Assembly: GCF_024267655.1 (NCBI RefSeq)
Contig: NZ_CP100595.1
Location: forward strand, 1,860,001-1,924,000
Length of the DNA: 64,000 bases
Source of the DNA: Arcobacter roscoffensis
GTDB taxonomy: Bacteria; Campylobacterota; Campylobacteria; Campylobacterales; Arcobacteraceae
Direction: 5' to 3'
Made by a program: the position numbers and the translations under genes. The notes beneath the pieces were generated by a model that saw only the letters and a program-made list of their open reading frames with translations, made no database searches and had not been told where the DNA came from. Positions 28,152 to 57,248 of this stretch are shown in pieces. Position 1 is the stretch's first letter, and each line of letters begins with the position of its first letter.

Positions 28152-29237
28152 ATGGAAAATTTAGTAGAAATAGTCGATAATAAAATAAATCAAGTAAGAA
28201 CAACTAGCTTAGACATATCATTTAATGAGCTTTTAGATATGTACTTAAATGAAGAATTAGTTATAGCACCTGACTATCAAAGGTTATTTAGATGGAGTCA
28301 AGAAAAAAGTTCAAGATTTATAGAAACTTTGATTTTAGAGCTTCCATTACCTCCGATATTTGTTATTGAAGTTGAAGAAGGAAAATATGAATTAATTGAT
28401 GGCTTACAAAGAATATCATCTTATATTCAGTTTAGAGGTGAATTATCAGACAAAGATAACTTAATATTAAAAGATTGTGATATTGTTCCAGACTTAAATG
28501 GATTAAGCTATGATGATTTTCCTAAAACACTTCAAATAAAATTAAAAAGAAACTTTATCAGAGTTGAAGTTTTAAGAAAAGAAAGTGATACAAGTTTAAG
28601 ATATCATATGTTTAAAAGACTTAATAGTGGAGGTGAAATCTTATCTGAACAAGAAATAAGAAATTGTACAATTAGAATATTAAACCCTAAAATCAACGAA
28701 TTTATAATAGAAATGAGTGGATATCAACCATTTAAAAATGTTACATCGAAAATTAAATCTGAAGATATTGAAAAAAAGAAGAATGAAGAATTAGTCTTAA
28801 GATTTTTTACATTAAAAAACTATTTAGAACATTATGATAAATATGATTCAATTGATGATTACTTAACTCACTATATGGAATTAATTGCATCTGAAGATGT
28901 TATATTTGATTATAATGATGAAAGAATCCATTTCAAAAAAACATTTGATATTTTAGACAATATTCTTGGTGAAAATATATTCTCAACAAAATTAAATGGT
29001 AATAGATTTGGTAGAAACTTTGTCTTATATTATTTTGATGGATTAGTTTTAGGCATTCAAAAATATTTAGAAAAAATTATTCAACACAATAAATATGCCG
29101 ACTTAGTAAGTATAATCCAAGATATTAAAGATAATGATGAATTTTACAGGGCAAGAACTGGTAGTAAAAGTAATACTAAAAAAAGAATACAAATAGTTGA
29201 ATCCAAATTAGAAGAGTTTTTTAATGGACTTCACTAA
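28152..29237 (+). CDS. DUF262 domain protein
   Basis: The 361-residue protein has the DUF262 (ParB/sulfiredoxin-like) core in its first half: IAPDYQRLFRWSQEKSSRFIETLILELPLPPIF followed by the signature YELIDGLQRISS. The C-terminal half is helical and lacks a recognisable DUF1524 nuclease, unlike GmrSD. DUF262 proteins are common in phage-defence loci and may bind or hydrolyse nucleotides. It overlaps the HEPN gene by 14 bases, so the two should work together. Confidence 0.85.
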   Translation: MENLVEIVDNKINQVRTTSLDISFNELLDMYLNEELVIAPDYQRLFRWSQEKSSRFIETLILELPLPPIFVIEVEEGKYELIDGLQRISSYIQFRGELSDKDNLILKDCDIVPDLNGLSYDDFPKTLQIKLKRNFIRVEVLRKESDTSLRYHMFKRLNSGGEILSEQEIRNCTIRILNPKINEFIIEMSGYQPFKNVTSKIKSEDIEKKKNEELVLRFFTLKNYLEHYDKYDSIDDYLTHYMELIASEDVIFDYNDERIHFKKTFDILDNILGENIFSTKLNGNRFGRNFVLYYFDGLVLGIQKYLEKIIQHNKYADLVSIIQDIKDNDEFYRARTGSKSNTKKRIQIVESKLEEFFNGLH

Positions 29238-29955
29238 TTATCGAAATGACATAGAGTATGATCTTGATTGGAGACTTCAAGAATTAAGGCTTCTTAAAAA
29301 TCAAATAGCTTTACTAAAAGATGAAGAAAAAAAAATTCAGCTTAGAAAAGCTCTTTTAGTTATGCTATATTCTCATTTTGAAGGTTTTTTTAAAATATCC
29401 TTATTAACATATATTAAATATATTAATGATTTAAAATTACATTGTAATGAAATTCAACACAAACCTGAACTAATTACATCAACAATGGATGAAATTTTTA
29501 TTAAGTATGAAGATTTAAATATAAGAAATAAAATGATTAATAAAAAATCAAGAGAAGAAAGTGTCGAATCTGAAGAAGGTGATGTTAAAAGTGTAGATAC
29601 TTTATTTAGAAGAACAGATTTCATTACAAACTTTGATAAATATATGCAATTAGTAATCAATCTAAAAGATAATGTGATAAATACTGAGTCTAACTTAAAA
29701 TCACATGTTTTAGAAAAAAATTTCTATAAACTATCTATACCTCATAATATTCTTAAAGATTCTAATAAAGTTATAAATAAATTAGTTAACCTTAGAAATT
29801 CAATAGCTCATGGTAGTCGTAAAACAGGTTTTAAAGAAGATGATTATCAAAAAATAGAAACTGAAATTATAGAAAAAGTAATGAAGCCTCTAATAAATAT
29901 TTTAAATACTGAAGCAAGAATACTAGTATCTCATAGTCATATCTATACAATTTAA
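29224..29955 (+). CDS. HEPN-domain protein (MAE_28990/MAE_18760-like)
   Basis: The 243-residue protein is helical and begins with LQELRLLKNQIALL and KALLVMLYSHFEGFFK. Near residue 195 it carries LVNLRNSIAHG, which holds the R-X4-H motif of HEPN ribonucleases (R-N-S-I-A-H). The arrangement matches HEPN proteins of the MAE_28990 type. It probably acts as an RNA-cutting effector whose activity is held or triggered by the DUF262 partner. Which gene acts as antidote or sensor is not shown by the sequence. Confidence 0.78.
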   Translation: MDFTNYRNDIEYDLDWRLQELRLLKNQIALLKDEEKKIQLRKALLVMLYSHFEGFFKISLLTYIKYINDLKLHCNEIQHKPELITSTMDEIFIKYEDLNIRNKMINKKSREESVESEEGDVKSVDTLFRRTDFITNFDKYMQLVINLKDNVINTESNLKSHVLEKNFYKLSIPHNILKDSNKVINKLVNLRNSIAHGSRKTGFKEDDYQKIETEIIEKVMKPLINILNTEARILVSHSHIYTI

Positions 29956-30244: not shown

Positions 30245-31012
30245 CTAAAGTCCTTTAGTATCATTTCTATACTCAGATATTCTTAGAATTTTTATAAAAT
30301 CTTTTCCTTTTTCAGTAATTTTTATTTCTTCATCTTCTATAATAATTAAACCACAATTTAATAAATATGCTATATAAGATTCCGTGTTCCAATCTTTAAA
30401 TGCATCTATATTTTCTTCTTTTACATTATTGAAATAATTATGAATAGAATTTAAATCATACTTTAATTGAACTTCTAATTTTTCTAAAAGTTTTATTTGG
30501 GAACCAAAAATACTTACATATACACGATAAAACCAATTATGAATTTGTTCTGTAGCTAAATGATGTATAAGTACATTTACTTTCTCATGATCATTGTTAA
30601 TACCTTTTCTTTGTAAGTCATCTATAATCATTTTCTCTTGTTCTTTTACACTATTAAGATCTTTCCCATAATTTAATAAATCATCTATATTTTCTTTAAT
30701 ACTTTCTTGTTTAGAAGTTTGACTTATAGTACTAAGAAATGATTCATCATTTTTATAATCTGATGGTGCATATAATTTATTATGATGCTTTGATACCAAC
30801 CATACAAATGCTCCTAATACTAAAATAGGAAATCCAATTGTAAAATATATAATAGGCATTCGCTCATTACATTTAAGTTCCTCTACTGTAACACCAAATA
30901 GAAGACAAGCAAAACCGTAAACAAGTAGTATGAAAAGGGCAATTATTCCTAATGGATTTTTAGCTAGTTCTTTTGTTGAATTACTAAAATTATTAAATAT
31001 TTCCATTTTCAT
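30245..31012 (-). CDS. Two-pass membrane protein with cytoplasmic domain
   Basis: The 255-residue product has two membrane helices near the start (about residues 20-41 and 52-73), then LVSKHHNKLYAPSDYKND and a cytoplasmic helical region (about 85-255). I have no named family for it. Similar N-termini recur in proteins of mobile elements as I recall them, but this is weak. It is the last gene before the phage terminator and overlaps the preceding exported protein gene by 4 bases. A role in superinfection exclusion or other lysogenic conversion would suit the position; it is not shown. Confidence 0.65.
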   Translation of the reverse strand: MKMEIFNNFSNSTKELAKNPLGIIALFILLVYGFACLLFGVTVEELKCNERMPIIYFTIGFPILVLGAFVWLVSKHHNKLYAPSDYKNDESFLSTISQTSKQESIKENIDDLLNYGKDLNSVKEQEKMIIDDLQRKGINNDHEKVNVLIHHLATEQIHNWFYRVYVSIFGSQIKLLEKLEVQLKYDLNSIHNYFNNVKEENIDAFKDWNTESYIAYLLNCGLIIIEDEEIKITEKGKDFIKILRISEYRNDTKGL

Positions 31013-31524
31013 ATCTCATCTTCTAAAATTTCTTTTATTACTTTAGAAGATCCTTTTAAAGTAAAAGAAGTATCTTTATATCCACCTGTTGAAATAAAGT
31101 ATCTAACTTTTAATACACTACCATTCATTAAGTTTTTCAAGTTTATTGTTTTTAACATTTGCTCATCTTTAGACTTTCCTAATATAAAATTTATCCATTT
31201 TGGTTTCCATACATAGAATTCTCTATTATAAACCATTTCACCAAGACCTTTTAGTTGCTTAATTCTTGTAGCTTTATTTTTATCAATTCTCATAATTAAA
31301 GATTTTTCATAATCTAAAGTATCAAAAATATTATCTGAAAGTGCAAAATTTGCCCATACTTCTTCACCTATTTTATATATCATAAAAGAGTGACCTTTAT
31401 TATTTTTAACAATTGCCATCTTTTCTACTTTATCCGTCATTGCATCAACATCCTTTTGAACATACCATCCTGCACTAAAAGAAAATGTAGTCATTAAAAC
31501 TAATATACAAATTACTTTTTTCAT
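31009..31524 (-). CDS. Exported protein (intact copy of a duplicated gene)
   Basis: The 171-residue protein has a signal peptide (MKKVICILVLMTTFSFSAG) and a mature part starting WYVQKDVDAMTDK. The conserved-looking C-terminal pattern, LMNGSVLKVRYFISTGGYKDTSFTLKG, loosely recalls the VasI or invasion-locus-B type periplasmic fold. That resemblance is weak. The C-terminal half is duplicated as a broken fragment at 31916-32140. An AGGAG site precedes the ATG. It is probably a lysogenic-conversion gene coupled to the membrane protein after it. Confidence 0.65.
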   Translation of the reverse strand: MKKVICILVLMTTFSFSAGWYVQKDVDAMTDKVEKMAIVKNNKGHSFMIYKIGEEVWANFALSDNIFDTLDYEKSLIMRIDKNKATRIKQLKGLGEMVYNREFYVWKPKWINFILGKSKDEQMLKTINLKNLMNGSVLKVRYFISTGGYKDTSFTLKGSSKVIKEILEDEI

Positions 31525-31590
31525 TCTTACTCCTAAACTTAAATTTTGAACATTTTATATAAAATAAACTTAAAATTATTCTTTTATAAT

Positions 31591-31869
31591 TTACTTTAGC
31601 TTTTCTCTAACTTTTCCCAACTTATTCTTACAATCCATAGCCACTTCAAAAACCTCTGTTTGGAAAGTAGCTATATCTGATTGCATTGTTCCTGGTGCAG
31701 TTGTTGAAAAGTCTTTACAAGTTAGTAACTCTTTTGGAACTTTCACTTTTACAATCTTCACTTTCTCTACAATCTTTGGAACTTCTACTGTTTTGAATGA
31801 GCTGCCACAAGCTGTTAGTATTATTGATAAGAACATCAGCTGCAGGAGCATCACTATTTTTTTTATCAT
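31591..31869 (-). CDS. Second Rz1-like lipoprotein (duplicate)
   Basis: The 92-residue protein is nearly identical to the Rz1-like gene at 33000-33278. It has a signal with lipobox SIILTAC, then SSFKTVEVPKIVEKVKIVKVKVPKELLTCKD. AAGGAT precedes its ATG. Its normal partner, the full inner-membrane spanin, is not duplicated: only the last part of that gene is present here, in a chimeric frame. The lipoprotein itself is intact and could still be made. Confidence 0.75.
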   Translation of the reverse strand: MIKKIVMLLQLMFLSIILTACGSSFKTVEVPKIVEKVKIVKVKVPKELLTCKDFSTTAPGTMQSDIATFQTEVFEVAMDCKNKLGKVREKLK

Positions 31870-31908
31870 TTTCTATATCCTTTTTTATTATCAATAGTTC
31901 TTTAGGTA
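31591..31908 (-). repeat. Duplicated segment, copy B (matches 33000-33317)
   Basis: About 310 bases holding the Rz1-like gene and the Rz tail are repeated at 33000-33317 with only scattered differences. Similarity stops at the junction near 31908. Confidence 0.85.
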
Positions 31909-32140
31909 CTTTTGTAGAACCTTTTAAAGTAAAAGAAGTATCTTTATATCCACATGTTGAAATAAAGTATCTAACTTTTAATACACTACCATTCATTAAG
32001 TTTTTCAAGTTTATTGTTTTTAACATTTCCTAATAAAAATTTATCCACTCAAATTTCCATACATAGAGTTCTCTATTATAAACCATCTCAGCAAGACCTT
32101 TTAGTTGCTTAATTCTTGTAGCTTTATTTTTCCAACTTAA
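31715..32140 (-). pseudogene. Chimeric remnant: exported-protein fragment joined to spanin tail
   Basis: From about 32140 down to 31916 the DNA matches the C-terminal half of the exported-protein gene (31050-31290), with a small deletion and frame damage. At about 31908-31916 it passes directly into the last third of the Rz gene. An open frame of 103 codons (31715-32026) runs across the junction, but it joins two unrelated halves and has no good ribosome site. I treat it as a rearrangement scar. Confidence 0.7.
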
Positions 32141-32230
32141 GATAGACTTGATAAATCAATTAATAATTAATTTTTTACTATAATACTATACAAATTAGAG
32201 TGATATGCTTTTGAAGGGAATATAATAAAT

Positions 32231-32839
32231 ATGGAAATGAGACCTGCTCAAAAAAATAGTGACAAAAAAAAAGGAGTTAAACCTACTCAATTAAAAACTA
32301 CTAAACAGATATTTGAAGAAGAAAAAAAAGCTATAAATAATAGACTTGATTGTTGGCATAAAGAGAAGAAAACAGTTATTCACAAAAAAGAAACAGTTAA
32401 TAAAACTTCTGTTGGTAAAGTTAAATTTGATATTATGCCGTGGACTATATGGTGGTTTATTGCAGGTGAAAACATAGGTAGAGAATTAGGTTCTCATGTA
32501 AATCAAGATGAATCATTTAATTTTTATAGACCTTGTATAGTGATATCTAAATTAAAATCTTTACATGATACAGACCACAATTTAATTACTATATTACCTT
32601 TAAGTACGAAATCAGATGGATTAGGAATTCACAAGAAATTTATACATAAACTTGAATCATCAAAATACCCAAAAACCAGTAAATTTAATAAAGGTTTAAA
32701 ATGTGATTCTTATGTAGTATGTCATCAAATGAAGACAATTGATACTAAGAGATTGACAGCACAAGTGACTACTAGAATTTTAGATGAAGATGTTACTGAA
32801 ATAAAAGAAAAAATGAAAAAATATATTGATTTAATATAA
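32231..32839 (+). CDS. MazF/PemK-like protein
   Basis: The 202-residue protein has a lysine-rich N-terminal extension (about 1-65). A PemK/MazF-like domain follows: IMPWTIWWFIAGENIGRE, then FYRPCIVISKLK, LITILPLSTK and CDSYVVCHQMKTIDTKRL. In this family the fold is an endoribonuclease toxin, normally with a small antitoxin gene alongside; none is seen. It is the only plus-strand gene in this part of the late region, has its own promoter-like AT-rich upstream and a terminator, and sits inside a rearranged duplication, so it probably arrived as a separate cassette. Confidence 0.75.
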   Translation: MEMRPAQKNSDKKKGVKPTQLKTTKQIFEEEKKAINNRLDCWHKEKKTVIHKKETVNKTSVGKVKFDIMPWTIWWFIAGENIGRELGSHVNQDESFNFYRPCIVISKLKSLHDTDHNLITILPLSTKSDGLGIHKKFIHKLESSKYPKTSKFNKGLKCDSYVVCHQMKTIDTKRLTAQVTTRILDEDVTEIKEKMKKYIDLI

Positions 32840-32962
32840 ATTTATTTTAATTTAATAAAAATTAAGATTTTTTAGATATTATAGTTCCAATGAAAAGTTA
32901 AATGTTCTAATCATTTAAAACTCCTTTCAGATACCGAACCCGTTAATTCGGGATAATATTAC

Positions 32963-32990
32963 AGCCAAGGTTTTTAACTTGGCTTTTTTT
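32963..32990 (+). terminator. Terminator after the MazF/PemK-like gene
   Basis: AGCCAAG-loop-CTTGGCT is followed by seven T on the plus strand. The 123 bases between gene and terminator also hold, on the minus strand, an AAAGGAG site and an 11-codon frame (32879-32914), possibly the stub of an interrupted gene. Confidence 0.8.
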
Positions 32991-32999
32991 ATGTTTTAT

Positions 33000-33278
33000 T
33001 TACTCTAATTTTTTTCTAATCTTTCCCAACTTACTCTTACAATCCATAGCCACTTCAAAAACCTCTGTTTGAAATATTGCTATATCTGATTGCATTGTTC
33101 CTGGTGCACTTGATGGAAAGTCTTTACAAGTTAGTAACTCTTTTGGAACTTTCACTTTTACAATCTTCACTTTCTCTACAATCTTTGGAACTTCTACTGT
33201 TTTGGATGAGCTGCCACAAGCTGTTAGTATTATTGATAAGAACATCAGCTGCAGGAGCATCACTATTTTTTTTATCAT
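33000..33278 (-). CDS. Rz1-like outer-membrane spanin lipoprotein
   Basis: The 92-residue lipoprotein (lipobox SIILTAC, valine- and proline-bearing VEVPKIVEKVKIVKVKVPKELL) is encoded partly inside the spanin Rz gene in another frame, overlapping it from 33124 to 33278. Nested Rz/Rz1 pairs are a hallmark of phage lysis cassettes. Together they bridge the periplasm and fuse inner and outer membranes at the end of lysis. A close duplicate lies at 31591-31869. Confidence 0.85.
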   Translation of the reverse strand: MIKKIVMLLQLMFLSIILTACGSSSKTVEVPKIVEKVKIVKVKVPKELLTCKDFPSSAPGTMQSDIAIFQTEVFEVAMDCKSKLGKIRKKLE

Positions 33279-33618
33279 TTTCTATATCCTTTTTGATTAT
33301 CAATAGTTCTTTTTGTTGTTTTAACTTCTCTTTGTAATATGTGGTTAACAGTTCTATATTTTTTCTATTCTCTTTTTCTAGTTTCTTTATCTCATTTTCA
33401 TTTGATCTATTTATCAAAAGAGTTTTATTTAGTGCATCAGCTGTTTTATCTAATGCACTTTGTATCTGTACATTTAAAAGCTCCTTTTGACTTACCACTT
33501 TTTCAAGTTTTAGAACATTGTAATACTGATAACCCATAAAAGAAAATACACTTATAACTAAAGCTAAATATATGTAAACATTAAAAGGTATTATCTTCTT
33601 AACAATCGCTGATACCAT
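33124..33618 (-). CDS. Rz-like inner-membrane spanin
   Basis: From the ATG at 33618 (AGAGGAT upstream) the 164-residue product has one N-terminal membrane helix (NVYIYLALVISVFSFMGYQYY) and a long periplasmic coiled coil (KLEKENRKNIELLTTYYKEKLKQ). An earlier in-frame ATG at 33684 would add 22 residues with no ribosome site. The start overlaps the transglycosylase end. The pair with the embedded Rz1-like lipoprotein makes the assignment firm. Confidence 0.82.
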   Translation of the reverse strand: MVSAIVKKIIPFNVYIYLALVISVFSFMGYQYYNVLKLEKVVSQKELLNVQIQSALDKTADALNKTLLINRSNENEIKKLEKENRKNIELLTTYYKEKLKQQKELLIIKKDIENDKKNSDAPAADVLINNTNSLWQLIQNSRSSKDCRESEDCKSESSKRVTNL

Positions 33619-34160
33619 CTTTCTATCCTCTTTACATATGTTATTGTTTCTTTTGAGTGATGCCCAGTAATCTTTGGTAAACACCTAATAATATCTTCAT
33701 ACAATCTTGCGTTATTACAAGCTTTTTGAGCTTTGAGGATATTCCCCAAACCTGCGTTATAACTAGCAGCACCTAGATAGTGCCTATCAAGTATTGGCCT
33801 TTTCCATTTCCATTGATTTCTAAGCTTTCGCATATAATATGCGCCTGCAAAGATAGAGTGATAAGTACTAAAAGCACTTATACTCTTTTCATATCCTAGC
33901 TCACGCCATATTTGCTTTTTTGTAGCTGGCATGAACTGAGCTAGACCCATAGCACCTACAGGAGATATAGCATTTTTCTTAAGTCTGCTCTCCTGATATA
34001 ACTGAGCTTTCCAATATCTGTACTTTGGAAAGTCAGACCAATATCTTTTGACAGATTTTTTTATATCTCTATCATACCTTGTATCATATAATGCTGCTGA
34101 TAAGGATTGACACCCCAATGAACCTAAGACCAATATACAAAGCAAAAGCTTTTGGATCAT
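33591..34160 (-). CDS. SLT-type lytic transglycosylase (endolysin)
   Basis: The start chosen is ATG at 34160, preceded by GAAGGAG; a longer frame from 34211 lacks one. The 189-residue product has a lipoprotein-like or signal-anchor N-terminus (LLLCILVLGSLGC). The transglycosylase domain follows: AQLYQESRLKKNAISPVGAMGLAQFMPAT with the catalytic glutamate in YQESR, then LGAASYNAGLGNI and ITYVKRIERWYQ. It cleaves peptidoglycan. A secreted endolysin fits a pinholin or signal-arrest style of lysis. Neighbours are the holin candidates and spanins. Confidence 0.88.
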   Translation of the reverse strand: MIQKLLLCILVLGSLGCQSLSAALYDTRYDRDIKKSVKRYWSDFPKYRYWKAQLYQESRLKKNAISPVGAMGLAQFMPATKKQIWRELGYEKSISAFSTYHSIFAGAYYMRKLRNQWKWKRPILDRHYLGAASYNAGLGNILKAQKACNNARLYEDIIRCLPKITGHHSKETITYVKRIERWYQRLLRR

Positions 34161-42451: not shown

Positions 42452-43080
42452 TTATCCTAATCTTTCAAATATAAAATTTTCTAGCTCTTGCCCTTCAAGC
42501 ATTTTTATGTCTTTTTGTCCTGTAATCATAAAATCTTGAAGTTCTAAGCTCTTTTTTGAATATGGTGCTATAGTTGCTTGTGTCAACATTGCAAGTTGCA
42601 TTTCAACTCTATCTACTAAGGGTGGATACTTTTCAAAATATTCCATCCATTCATACAGTTCACTTTCACTTATAGTGTTTTCAAGTTCTGAAACTGTTTT
42701 TCCTAATTCATGCGCAAGTTTAAAAATAAACTCACGCTGTTCTAGTTTTTTGGCTTATCTAGCTCTTGTATTTGTTCAAAAACTTCAATTGCAAATGGAA
42801 GAGCATTATTATCTAGACTTTCAATCTCTTCTAATGTCATCTTTGGTTCAACCATGCCATAAGCAGTAGCTATATATGCAGCTTTGTTATAATCTGATGG
42901 AGGAATTTTTGTAACTTTTGAACCTTCAAATTTTGCATTTTTAAGCATCACACCATCAACAACTACTCTTTCAGAAATTGACAACTTTTTAACTTTTATT
43001 TGTTCTCCCTCAAAAACTTTTGATTCATAAGTTTTTGTTGAACTTGTAAATTTACTTAAAATATCTTCTTTTTTTAACAT
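42452..43080 (-). CDS. Tail assembly chaperone, -1 frameshift fusion (gpGT-like)
   Basis: Reading shifts by -1 at A-AAA-AAC (42751-42745) and then continues without a stop for 97 more codons from 42745 to 42452, giving about 209 residues. The new part begins LEQREFIFKLAHELGKTVSE and continues SELYEWMEYFEKYPPLVDRV, which has the character of the T domain of lambda-type GT chaperones. The only ATG-started frame in the second part (42646, 64 residues) lacks the conserved first half and so is probably not a separate gene. Both forms are expected, in a fixed ratio. Confidence 0.82.
42712..42751 (-). promoter_or_regulatory. Programmed -1 frameshift signal
   Basis: On the minus strand the slippery A-AAA-AAC (42751-42745) is followed by a 7-base spacer and then a stem at 42737-42712. 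The arms GCG-TG-AGTTT and AAACT-TG-CGC enclose a six-base loop. Spacing is right for a stimulatory hairpin. Confidence 0.78.
42742..43080 (-). CDS. Tail assembly chaperone, short form (gpG-like)
   Basis: The 112-residue product lies between the tail tube gene and the tape measure gene. It is acidic and helical, with KVFEGEQIKVKKLSISERVVVDGVML and AAYIATAYGMVEPKMTLEEIESL, a pattern common in phage tail chaperones. Its last codons CCA-AAA-AAC-TAG contain a slippery heptamer directly before the stop. The longer -1 frameshift product is given separately. Confidence 0.8.
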   Translation of the reverse strand: MLKKEDILSKFTSSTKTYESKVFEGEQIKVKKLSISERVVVDGVMLKNAKFEGSKVTKIPPSDYNKAAYIATAYGMVEPKMTLEEIESLDNNALPFAIEVFEQIQELDKPKN

Positions 43081-55269: not shown

Positions 55270-56004
55270 ATGATTGAATTTGATAAGAAAAAATATAAAA
55301 ATTTAGTACTAAGTAAATATGACAGTTATGAAAACTATGCATATATTCTGACAAATAGATTTGGTTTAGAGAAAAAGAAAGACGCAGTTACAAAATGGGG
55401 TCAATTAACAAACACAAATGTTCCCACAGCTAGAGACTTACCAATTGTTGCAAAATCATTAGATTTACAAGTTACAGACTTATATACAAATGCAGAAGAA
55501 GTTAGAGAAGAAATCACTAAAGAACAAATAAAAAAGAATCCAAATAAATATGAAGTTTCAAATAGTGAAAATGTTATTAACTTAACTTACTACAAAGATA
55601 ATTATGTTTGTGCAGGTTCGAACGAGATTGTTAATGAAACTGTAAATACAAAACCTATTTCTTTTGATAGATCATTCCTAGAGGAGCAGCTAGGCAAAAT
55701 AAACTTTGATAACCTTCATATAGTTAATACTATTGGTAATAGCATGGAACCTACAATTAAAGAGGGCTCTCAACTTGTTGTGAATCCTATTGAAAAAGAA
55801 TCTGCAATTGTTAATGGTGCAGTTTATACAGTAATTTACTATGGAGCACCTCAGGTTAAAAGGATTCAGCACAACCCTAAAACAAATGAGATCACTTTAA
55901 TTAGTGATAATAAAGACTATGAAAAAATTAATATTATTTTAGAAGAAGATGCAAATGATTTTAAAATAATTGGAAGAGTAGTAGCACATTTTAATTTTAT
56001 TTAA
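55270..56004 (+). CDS. S24-type phage repressor (CI/LexA-like)
   Basis: The 244-residue protein has an N-terminal HTH-containing region (LEKKKDAVTKWGQLTNTNVPTARDLPIVAKSLDLQVTDLY) and a C-terminal peptidase S24 domain. That domain has VNTIGNSMEPTIKEGSQLVVNP (catalytic Ser) and GAVYTVIYYGAPQVKRIQHNPKTNEITLISDN (catalytic Lys in VKRI). It should keep the prophage silent and cleave itself when RecA is activated by DNA damage. It is transcribed opposite to the Cro-like gene across the operator region. Confidence 0.92.
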   Translation: MIEFDKKKYKNLVLSKYDSYENYAYILTNRFGLEKKKDAVTKWGQLTNTNVPTARDLPIVAKSLDLQVTDLYTNAEEVREEITKEQIKKNPNKYEVSNSENVINLTYYKDNYVCAGSNEIVNETVNTKPISFDRSFLEEQLGKINFDNLHIVNTIGNSMEPTIKEGSQLVVNPIEKESAIVNGAVYTVIYYGAPQVKRIQHNPKTNEITLISDNKDYEKINIILEEDANDFKIIGRVVAHFNFI

Positions 56005-56077: not shown

Positions 56078-56233
56078 ATGAATACTTCAAACACTTCAAT
56101 AACCTATAATGGGACTAATTTAAATATCAAATTTAAAACTTTAGACAAACGCACTCGTATAAAAAAATGTATTAATAAAAAGGATGTTTATGGAACTAAA
56201 AGAACAATTAAAAAACTTATCGGAAAGAATTAA
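56078..56233 (+). CDS. Small basic protein overlapping the HsdR_N-like gene
   Basis: The 51-codon frame starts at ATG 56078 after AAAGGTGG and ends at 56233, 44 bases inside the next gene. The product is Asn/Thr-rich then strongly basic (KFKTLDKRTRIKKCINKK). No family is known. The good ribosome site and the overlap with the start at 56190 suggest translational coupling. Confidence 0.5.
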   Translation: MNTSNTSITYNGTNLNIKFKTLDKRTRIKKCINKKDVYGTKRTIKKLIGKN

Positions 56234-57248
56234 ATCTTTAAAAGACAGTGTAAATACAGAAGAGGCTACAAAACACTCTTTTATTATGCCTTTTATAAGT
56301 ACTTTAGGATATGACATATTTAATCCGAATGTAGTTATTCCTGAATTTACAGCAGATATAAGTAAAAAAAAGAATGAAAAAGTTGACTATGCTATTATGC
56401 ATGATGATGATCCTTTGATTTTAATTGAAGCAAAATGTCATACAGAAAACCTTAATCATCATGCAACACAACTAGAAAGATATTTTACAGTTACAGAAAG
56501 TAAATTTGCAATCTTAACAAATGGTATTGAATATAAAATTTTTACAGATTTAGAGAAACCAAATAGAATGGATGAAGTACCTTTCTTTAGTTTCAATCTT
56601 CTAGAACTTAAAGATAGAGATATTAAAGAAATTTCTAAATTTAAAAGTGAAAACTTTAATATTGAAAACATTGTTAAAAGTGCAGGGAATAAAAAATATA
56701 TATCTGGTATCAAAAGTATTTTTAAAGAAGAAGTTAAAAACCCTTCTGATGATTTTGCAAGATTTTTTGCTTCGAAATTATCTGATAAGGTTTTAAGACA
56801 AAATGTTATTGATGAATTCAAAGGATATTCTAAAATTGCATTTTCTGAAATAGTTTCAGATATGGCTCAAGAAAAGATTAATTCTTTAAAATCAAAACTT
56901 AGTGTTGAAATCTCAAGCGATGATGAAAAAGAAGTTGAGGATACTCCTGATGATGGAATTGTTACAACAGAAGAAGAGCTACAAGGCTTCTTTATTGTGA
57001 AATCAATATTAGCAGAAAATATAAACTTAGATAGAATACATGCAAGAGATACAAAAAGTTACTTTGGAGTACTTTTGGATAATAATAATAGAAAATGGAT
57101 TTGTAGACTTCTTTTTAATACAAAACAAAAATATTTATCTATACATATTGAAGATAAAAAAGAAGAGAAAATAGCATTAGACAAAATTGAAGACATTTAT
57201 AACTATAAAGAACAGCTTCAAAAAGTAATTCAAAGACTAGACTCATAA
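56190..57248 (+). CDS. Type I restriction HsdR N-terminal-like nuclease protein
   Basis: From ATG 56190 (AAAAAGGAT upstream) the 352-residue product has an HSDR_N-type nuclease domain in residues 10-150. The catalytic-type motif is KVDYAIMHDDDPLILIEAKCH, with D and the E-x-K of PD-(D/E)XK enzymes, after TLGYDIFNPNVVIPEF. No methylase or specificity gene is present, so it is not a full restriction system. Stand-alone proteins of this kind are common in prophages beside the immunity region and may protect the lysogen. A strong terminator follows. Confidence 0.82.
   Translation: MELKEQLKNLSERIKSLKDSVNTEEATKHSFIMPFISTLGYDIFNPNVVIPEFTADISKKKNEKVDYAIMHDDDPLILIEAKCHTENLNHHATQLERYFTVTESKFAILTNGIEYKIFTDLEKPNRMDEVPFFSFNLLELKDRDIKEISKFKSENFNIENIVKSAGNKKYISGIKSIFKEEVKNPSDDFARFFASKLSDKVLRQNVIDEFKGYSKIAFSEIVSDMAQEKINSLKSKLSVEISSDDEKEVEDTPDDGIVTTEEELQGFFIVKSILAENINLDRIHARDTKSYFGVLLDNNNRKWICRLLFNTKQKYLSIHIEDKKEEKIALDKIEDIYNYKEQLQKVIQRLDS

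Follow-up and report, generated by a model that had tools for sequence, protein, structure and literature searches.

Tail genes and the overlapping G and T frames

The window analysed here, a stretch of 64,000 nt of Arcobacter roscoffensis DNA taken as a whole, carries prophage tail genes in the order terminator, major tail protein, G/T and tape measure (Table 1), and genes for HK97-gp10 neck and head completion proteins are also present upstream. The G/T pair is situated between the major tail protein, for which the profile match is weak, and the tape measure protein, for which it is strong; the terminator is clearly assigned. The terminase of the prophage shares 55% identity with its counterpart at one locus of an Arcobacter MAG, and no T homologue was found within the stretch examined at that locus. 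This terminase, like the homologous G/T pair of the CJIE4 prophages of C. jejuni, points to a host that is probably an Arcobacter-like campylobacterium.

The ATG of the G-equivalent gene is preceded by the Shine-Dalgarno-like sequence AAGGA, and its 3′ end reads GAT AAG CCA AAA AAC TAG, which places the heptamer A_AAA_AAC, including a run of six A, in the phase required for tandem −1 slippage. The −1 frame begins with CTA GAA CAG at 42745 and ends with a stop codon at 42454–42452, giving a predicted fusion length of 112 + 97 = 209 residues. In-phase heptamers of the form X_XXY_YYZ occur at a frequency of 1.6% of codons in the ORFs of the window, and heptamers within the last few codons are expected by chance in approximately 4 of 64 window ORFs, the number observed also being 4. 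Given this chance frequency in an AT-rich window, the heptamer alone is weak and insufficient evidence of frameshifting.

Table 1. Tail genes and recoding features at the G/T locus (window positions)
Feature	Position	Strand	Size and description	Evidence
Tail terminator	43861-43514	-		PHROG 78, 1.7e-7
Probable major tail protein	43512-43090	-	Directly upstream of G	Weak PHROG 158 match (E 0.041) and position
G-equivalent gene	43080-42742	-	112 aa; 0-frame product ending TAG	ORF listing
Slippery heptamer A_AAA_AAC	42751-42745	-	In phase with G; abuts its TAG stop	Sequence
T frame	42745-42452	-	97 codons and stop; C-terminal part of predicted GT fusion	Translation; PF06223; PHROG 337
Likely stimulatory RNA hairpin	42737-42712	-	11 bp, 4-nt loop (26 nt)	Folding
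64-codon ORF	42646-42452	-	64 aa; 3′ part of T	ORF listing; no Shine-Dalgarno before ATG
Tape measure protein	42448-39464	-	994 aa; directly downstream of T	PF20155 TMP_3, 4.2e-17; PHROG 973, 1.1e-39

Other features were noted elsewhere in the window. A two-gene module on the plus strand (28152–29955) encodes a GmrSD_N (DUF262) protein of 361 aa, which matches PADLOC NsnA (4e-57) and PD-T4-2_A (9.6e-40); the second gene encodes a RiboL-PSP-HEPN protein of 243 aa, and the module is a candidate anti-phage defence pair adjoining the prophage. Direct repeats of 300, 142 and 96 nt (92% identity; spacings of 1409, 868 and 850) are located at 31025–32131 and 31567–33275 and partly duplicate the small genes at 31009–31524 and 33124–33684, resulting in a chimeric ORF at 31715–32026. 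Between the copies of the duplicated stretch lies a plus-strand gene (32231–32839) for a 202-aa protein with a PemK/MazF-like toxin domain (PF02452, 8.7e-10). A type I restriction HSDR_N domain (2.5e-14) is encoded on the plus strand at 56184–57248, adjoining the S24 repressor-like gene of the prophage (55270–56004).

Identity of the two frames and the downstream hairpin

The translated T frame matched Phage_tail_T (PF06223) at 34.0 bits, above the gathering cut-off of 25.9, and the PHROG 337 'tail protein' at 1.9e-17. Searched against solved structures, the T profile retrieved nothing other than designed proteins, matched through helical repeats, and no stretch passed alone. The first ATG of the −1 frame, at 42646, corresponds to residue 34, so that a caller that requires a start codon reports 64 codons only. 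The PF06223 match begins at T residue 26, and the alignments of most relatives start at T residues 1–6, upstream of any start codon in that frame. Since homology spans the 33 codons between the slip point and this ATG, the 64-codon ORF represents only the tail end of T. Codon position 3 of T was the most variable in all 16 of the compared pairs, indicating that the frame is under protein-level selection.

The existence of the 64-codon ORF, as reported by ORF callers, could suggest two separate genes, with T produced by re-initiation after the G stop from ATG 42646 or another start. However, no ATG, GTG or TTG was found among the 33 codons that follow the slip, and ATG 42646 itself is preceded by AGTGAACTGTATGAATGG, which lacks a Shine-Dalgarno sequence. 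Re-initiation also conflicts with homology that starts upstream of this ATG, and leaves the conserved heptamer and stem unexplained; we consider it very improbable.

The hairpin is separated from the heptamer by a spacer of 7 nt and has an MFE of −13.8 kcal/mol (z of −4.2 against dinucleotide shuffles). We also compared it with 500 synonymous recodings drawn with the codon usage of the window, in which the −1-frame peptide was kept. The recodings had a mean of −2.7 and an s.d. of 1.8 (z of −6.2), and none of the 500 was as stable as the observed stem, indicating that conservation of the peptide does not account for the stem.

These results bear out a sequence-only reading of this DNA, which had described a gene ending in CCA-AAA-AAC-TAG with A-AAA-AAC in phase, a −1 frame open for 97 codons and a stem starting 7 bases past the heptamer, all of which were recovered at the positions in Table 1. 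Its view of the 64-codon frame as the end of GT, with 33 codons lost to the ORF caller, agrees with the homology upstream of the ATG, and the codon conservation that it proposed as a check on the −1 frame is evident in the position-3 variability. As to the profile comparison with G/GT families that it proposed, the T part matched directly and the G part by profile–profile comparison. G of the window by itself had no significant Pfam match, and no direct Pfam tail-chaperone match (Phage_TAC_1 or Phage_TAC_13) was detected for it or its eight nearest relatives. When a G profile built with these eight relatives was aligned by hhalign with a profile of seven G proteins, including Phage_TAC_1 and Phage_TAC_13 members, a probability of 95.2% (E 2.9e-8) was obtained over 99 columns, and five of the nine G-family members matched the PHROG 344 tail assembly chaperone at E ≤ 0.1. 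On this profile–profile similarity, G appears to belong to the TAC superfamily in the wide sense.

Conservation of the probable frameshift site in relatives

Single-protein T scans of genome contigs and viral contigs yielded no relative; by genome search and tblastn in phages, 19 relatives (L002–L015 and L020–L024) were obtained from genomes of the same family or order and from Campylobacter, Moraxella, enterobacterial and Streptomyces phages. These are not all independent, several of the Moraxella and CJIE4 copies being close, but at least five independent heptamer types are represented among the distant phages. In all 19, T occupies the −1 frame relative to the G-like ORF before it, overlaps that ORF by 10–136 nt and is free of stops. 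The encoding of a single conserved architecture by two adjacent frames might also be expected of one gene split by a sequencing error or a frameshift mutation. This explanation is refuted by the recurrence of the split at the identical place and in the identical direction in 19 of 19 relatives with independent sequences, and its probability is practically nil.

A canonical in-phase slippery heptamer was identified at the overlap in 17 of the 19 relatives, namely, AAAAAAC (4), AAAAAAG (6), GGGAAAG (3), GGGAAAC (1) and CCCAAAG (3). No canonical heptamer was found in the overlap of L005, and the CJIE4-like L024 carries the non-canonical ACCAAAG in place of the CCCAAAG of its close relatives; this motif lies immediately 5′ of T on the minus strand, T being open from 1498 (reverse-complement numbering), and is possibly a decayed frameshift site. 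The sequence-only reading had named two observations that would speak against it, stops in the −1 frame of related prophages and the lack of a slippery site at the equivalent position. No such stop was present between the overlap and the position equivalent to the ATG, and on the second point the 17 canonical heptamers likewise side with the reading. The hairpin was more stable than synonymous recodings (p ≤ 0.004) in 13 of 17 relatives, and by the same test a clearly significant stem was absent in the other 4.

The six consecutive A at the window site raise the alternative that a fusion mRNA arises by transcriptional slippage rather than by ribosomal slippage. This run is, however, below the length usually linked to such slippage (n>7, quoted in PMC3711429), and the GGGAAAG, GGGAAAC and CCCAAAG of relatives permit tandem tRNA slippage without a long homopolymer. 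The letters of the heptamer thus vary while the slipping property is kept, which favours ribosomal slippage, and the fixed spacing of the stem also indicates the ribosome. In conjunction, these observations render transcriptional slippage as improbable as re-initiation. For ribosomal slippage, the heptamer, the stem, the T-domain homology and the conservation, considered jointly, are not due to chance, and the case rests on the comparative evidence rather than on the heptamer.

A stop codon lies immediately 3′ of the slippery site in the window, as it does in 7 of 17 relatives. One could imagine that in AT-rich prophages this TAG is itself part of the signal, slow termination and the stem together setting the GT:G ratio, but we regard this as unlikely.

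Relation to known G-GT systems

The heptamer of lambda is G_GGA_AAG, in place of the A_AAA_AAC of the window. The lambda G/GT pair, for which we followed the descriptions in PMC5009743 and PMC10885494, resembles the window pair in its position before the tape measure gene, in the overlap of G with a −1 T frame, in a heptamer near the G stop and in a small G accompanied by a larger fusion product (PMC5009743). In contrast, T of the window scored 12.6 bits against the lambda gpT equivalog phage_lam_T (TIGR01715), below its curated cut-off of 77.35, which places the window pair nearer to the HK97 type than to lambda. In the HK97-type phages mEp390 and Salmonella FSL SP-016 (Phage_TAC_1 and Phage_tail_T), a homologous T with approximately 34–36% identity to that of the window is found in the same order of HK97 gp10 family, terminator, major tail, G, T and tape measure. 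Their −1 overlap contains GGGAAAG and their G profiles are related to that of the window, whereas G of the window is too diverged for a direct Phage_TAC_1 match. The sequence-only reading of a lambda-type G/GT pair stands as to class and gene position, and is refined in that the T family and gene order are closer to HK97/mEp390 than to lambda gpT.

Two other systems were compared. In gp35/gp35.1 of Streptomyces phage phiSASD1, the frames are already joined in the deposited annotation and GGGAAAC abuts the G stop, as in the window; this is, however, a high-GC phage, and a clear stem was not found in the tested stretch. The CJIE4 prophages of Campylobacter jejuni have a homologous −1-frame T, a CCCAAAG heptamer and a strong hairpin, but with the heptamer 18 nt upstream of the G stop, and the two parts are deposited as hypothetical proteins. 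In four Moraxella and Campylobacter phage records, KR093644 (L006), KF751795 (L008), KR093656 (L009) and KR093653 (L011), G and T are annotated separately with T starting late, and each has a heptamer and a stem suited to a GT fusion.

On the basis of the arrangement of the genes, the slippery site, the stem, the identity of the T domain and the conservation documented here, the window locus very probably encodes the G/GT tail-chaperone pair of an HK97-type siphovirus-like prophage, with GT produced by −1 ribosomal slippage. The pair agrees with the lambda/HK97 system in every testable respect; for the frameshift event itself, its efficiency and the chaperone function, we infer from lambda and HK97. 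In lambda, G and T are joined by −1 frameshifting with a molar ratio of approximately 30:1, and G and T, both of them absent from the virion, coat the tape measure protein and bind the major tail protein, respectively; the frameshift is broadly conserved among long-tailed phages (PMC5009743). For two sites belonging to the HK97-like tail chaperone cluster, frameshifting of 6–7% was measured (PMC3711429). At the window locus, most ribosomes would terminate at TAG to yield G of 112 aa, and a few, delayed by the hairpin, would shift −1 on A_AAA_AAC and read T to yield GT of 209 aa. If assembly proceeds as in lambda, the tape measure protein would be coated by many G and few GT, the major tail protein would be recruited via the T domain, and both G and GT would depart before tail completion.

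These findings indicate that the window pair is a new, hitherto unannotated member of the textbook G-GT recoding family (lambda/HK97) and not a new variant, leaving the known picture of G-GT frameshifting unchanged. The annotation of the locus would be corrected by a predicted 209-residue GT chaperone that ORF callers overlooked, the halves of GT being likewise given as separate proteins in related Campylobacter and Moraxella phage records, and Arcobacter-like and Campylobacter prophages would join those in which a G-GT frameshift site is conserved.
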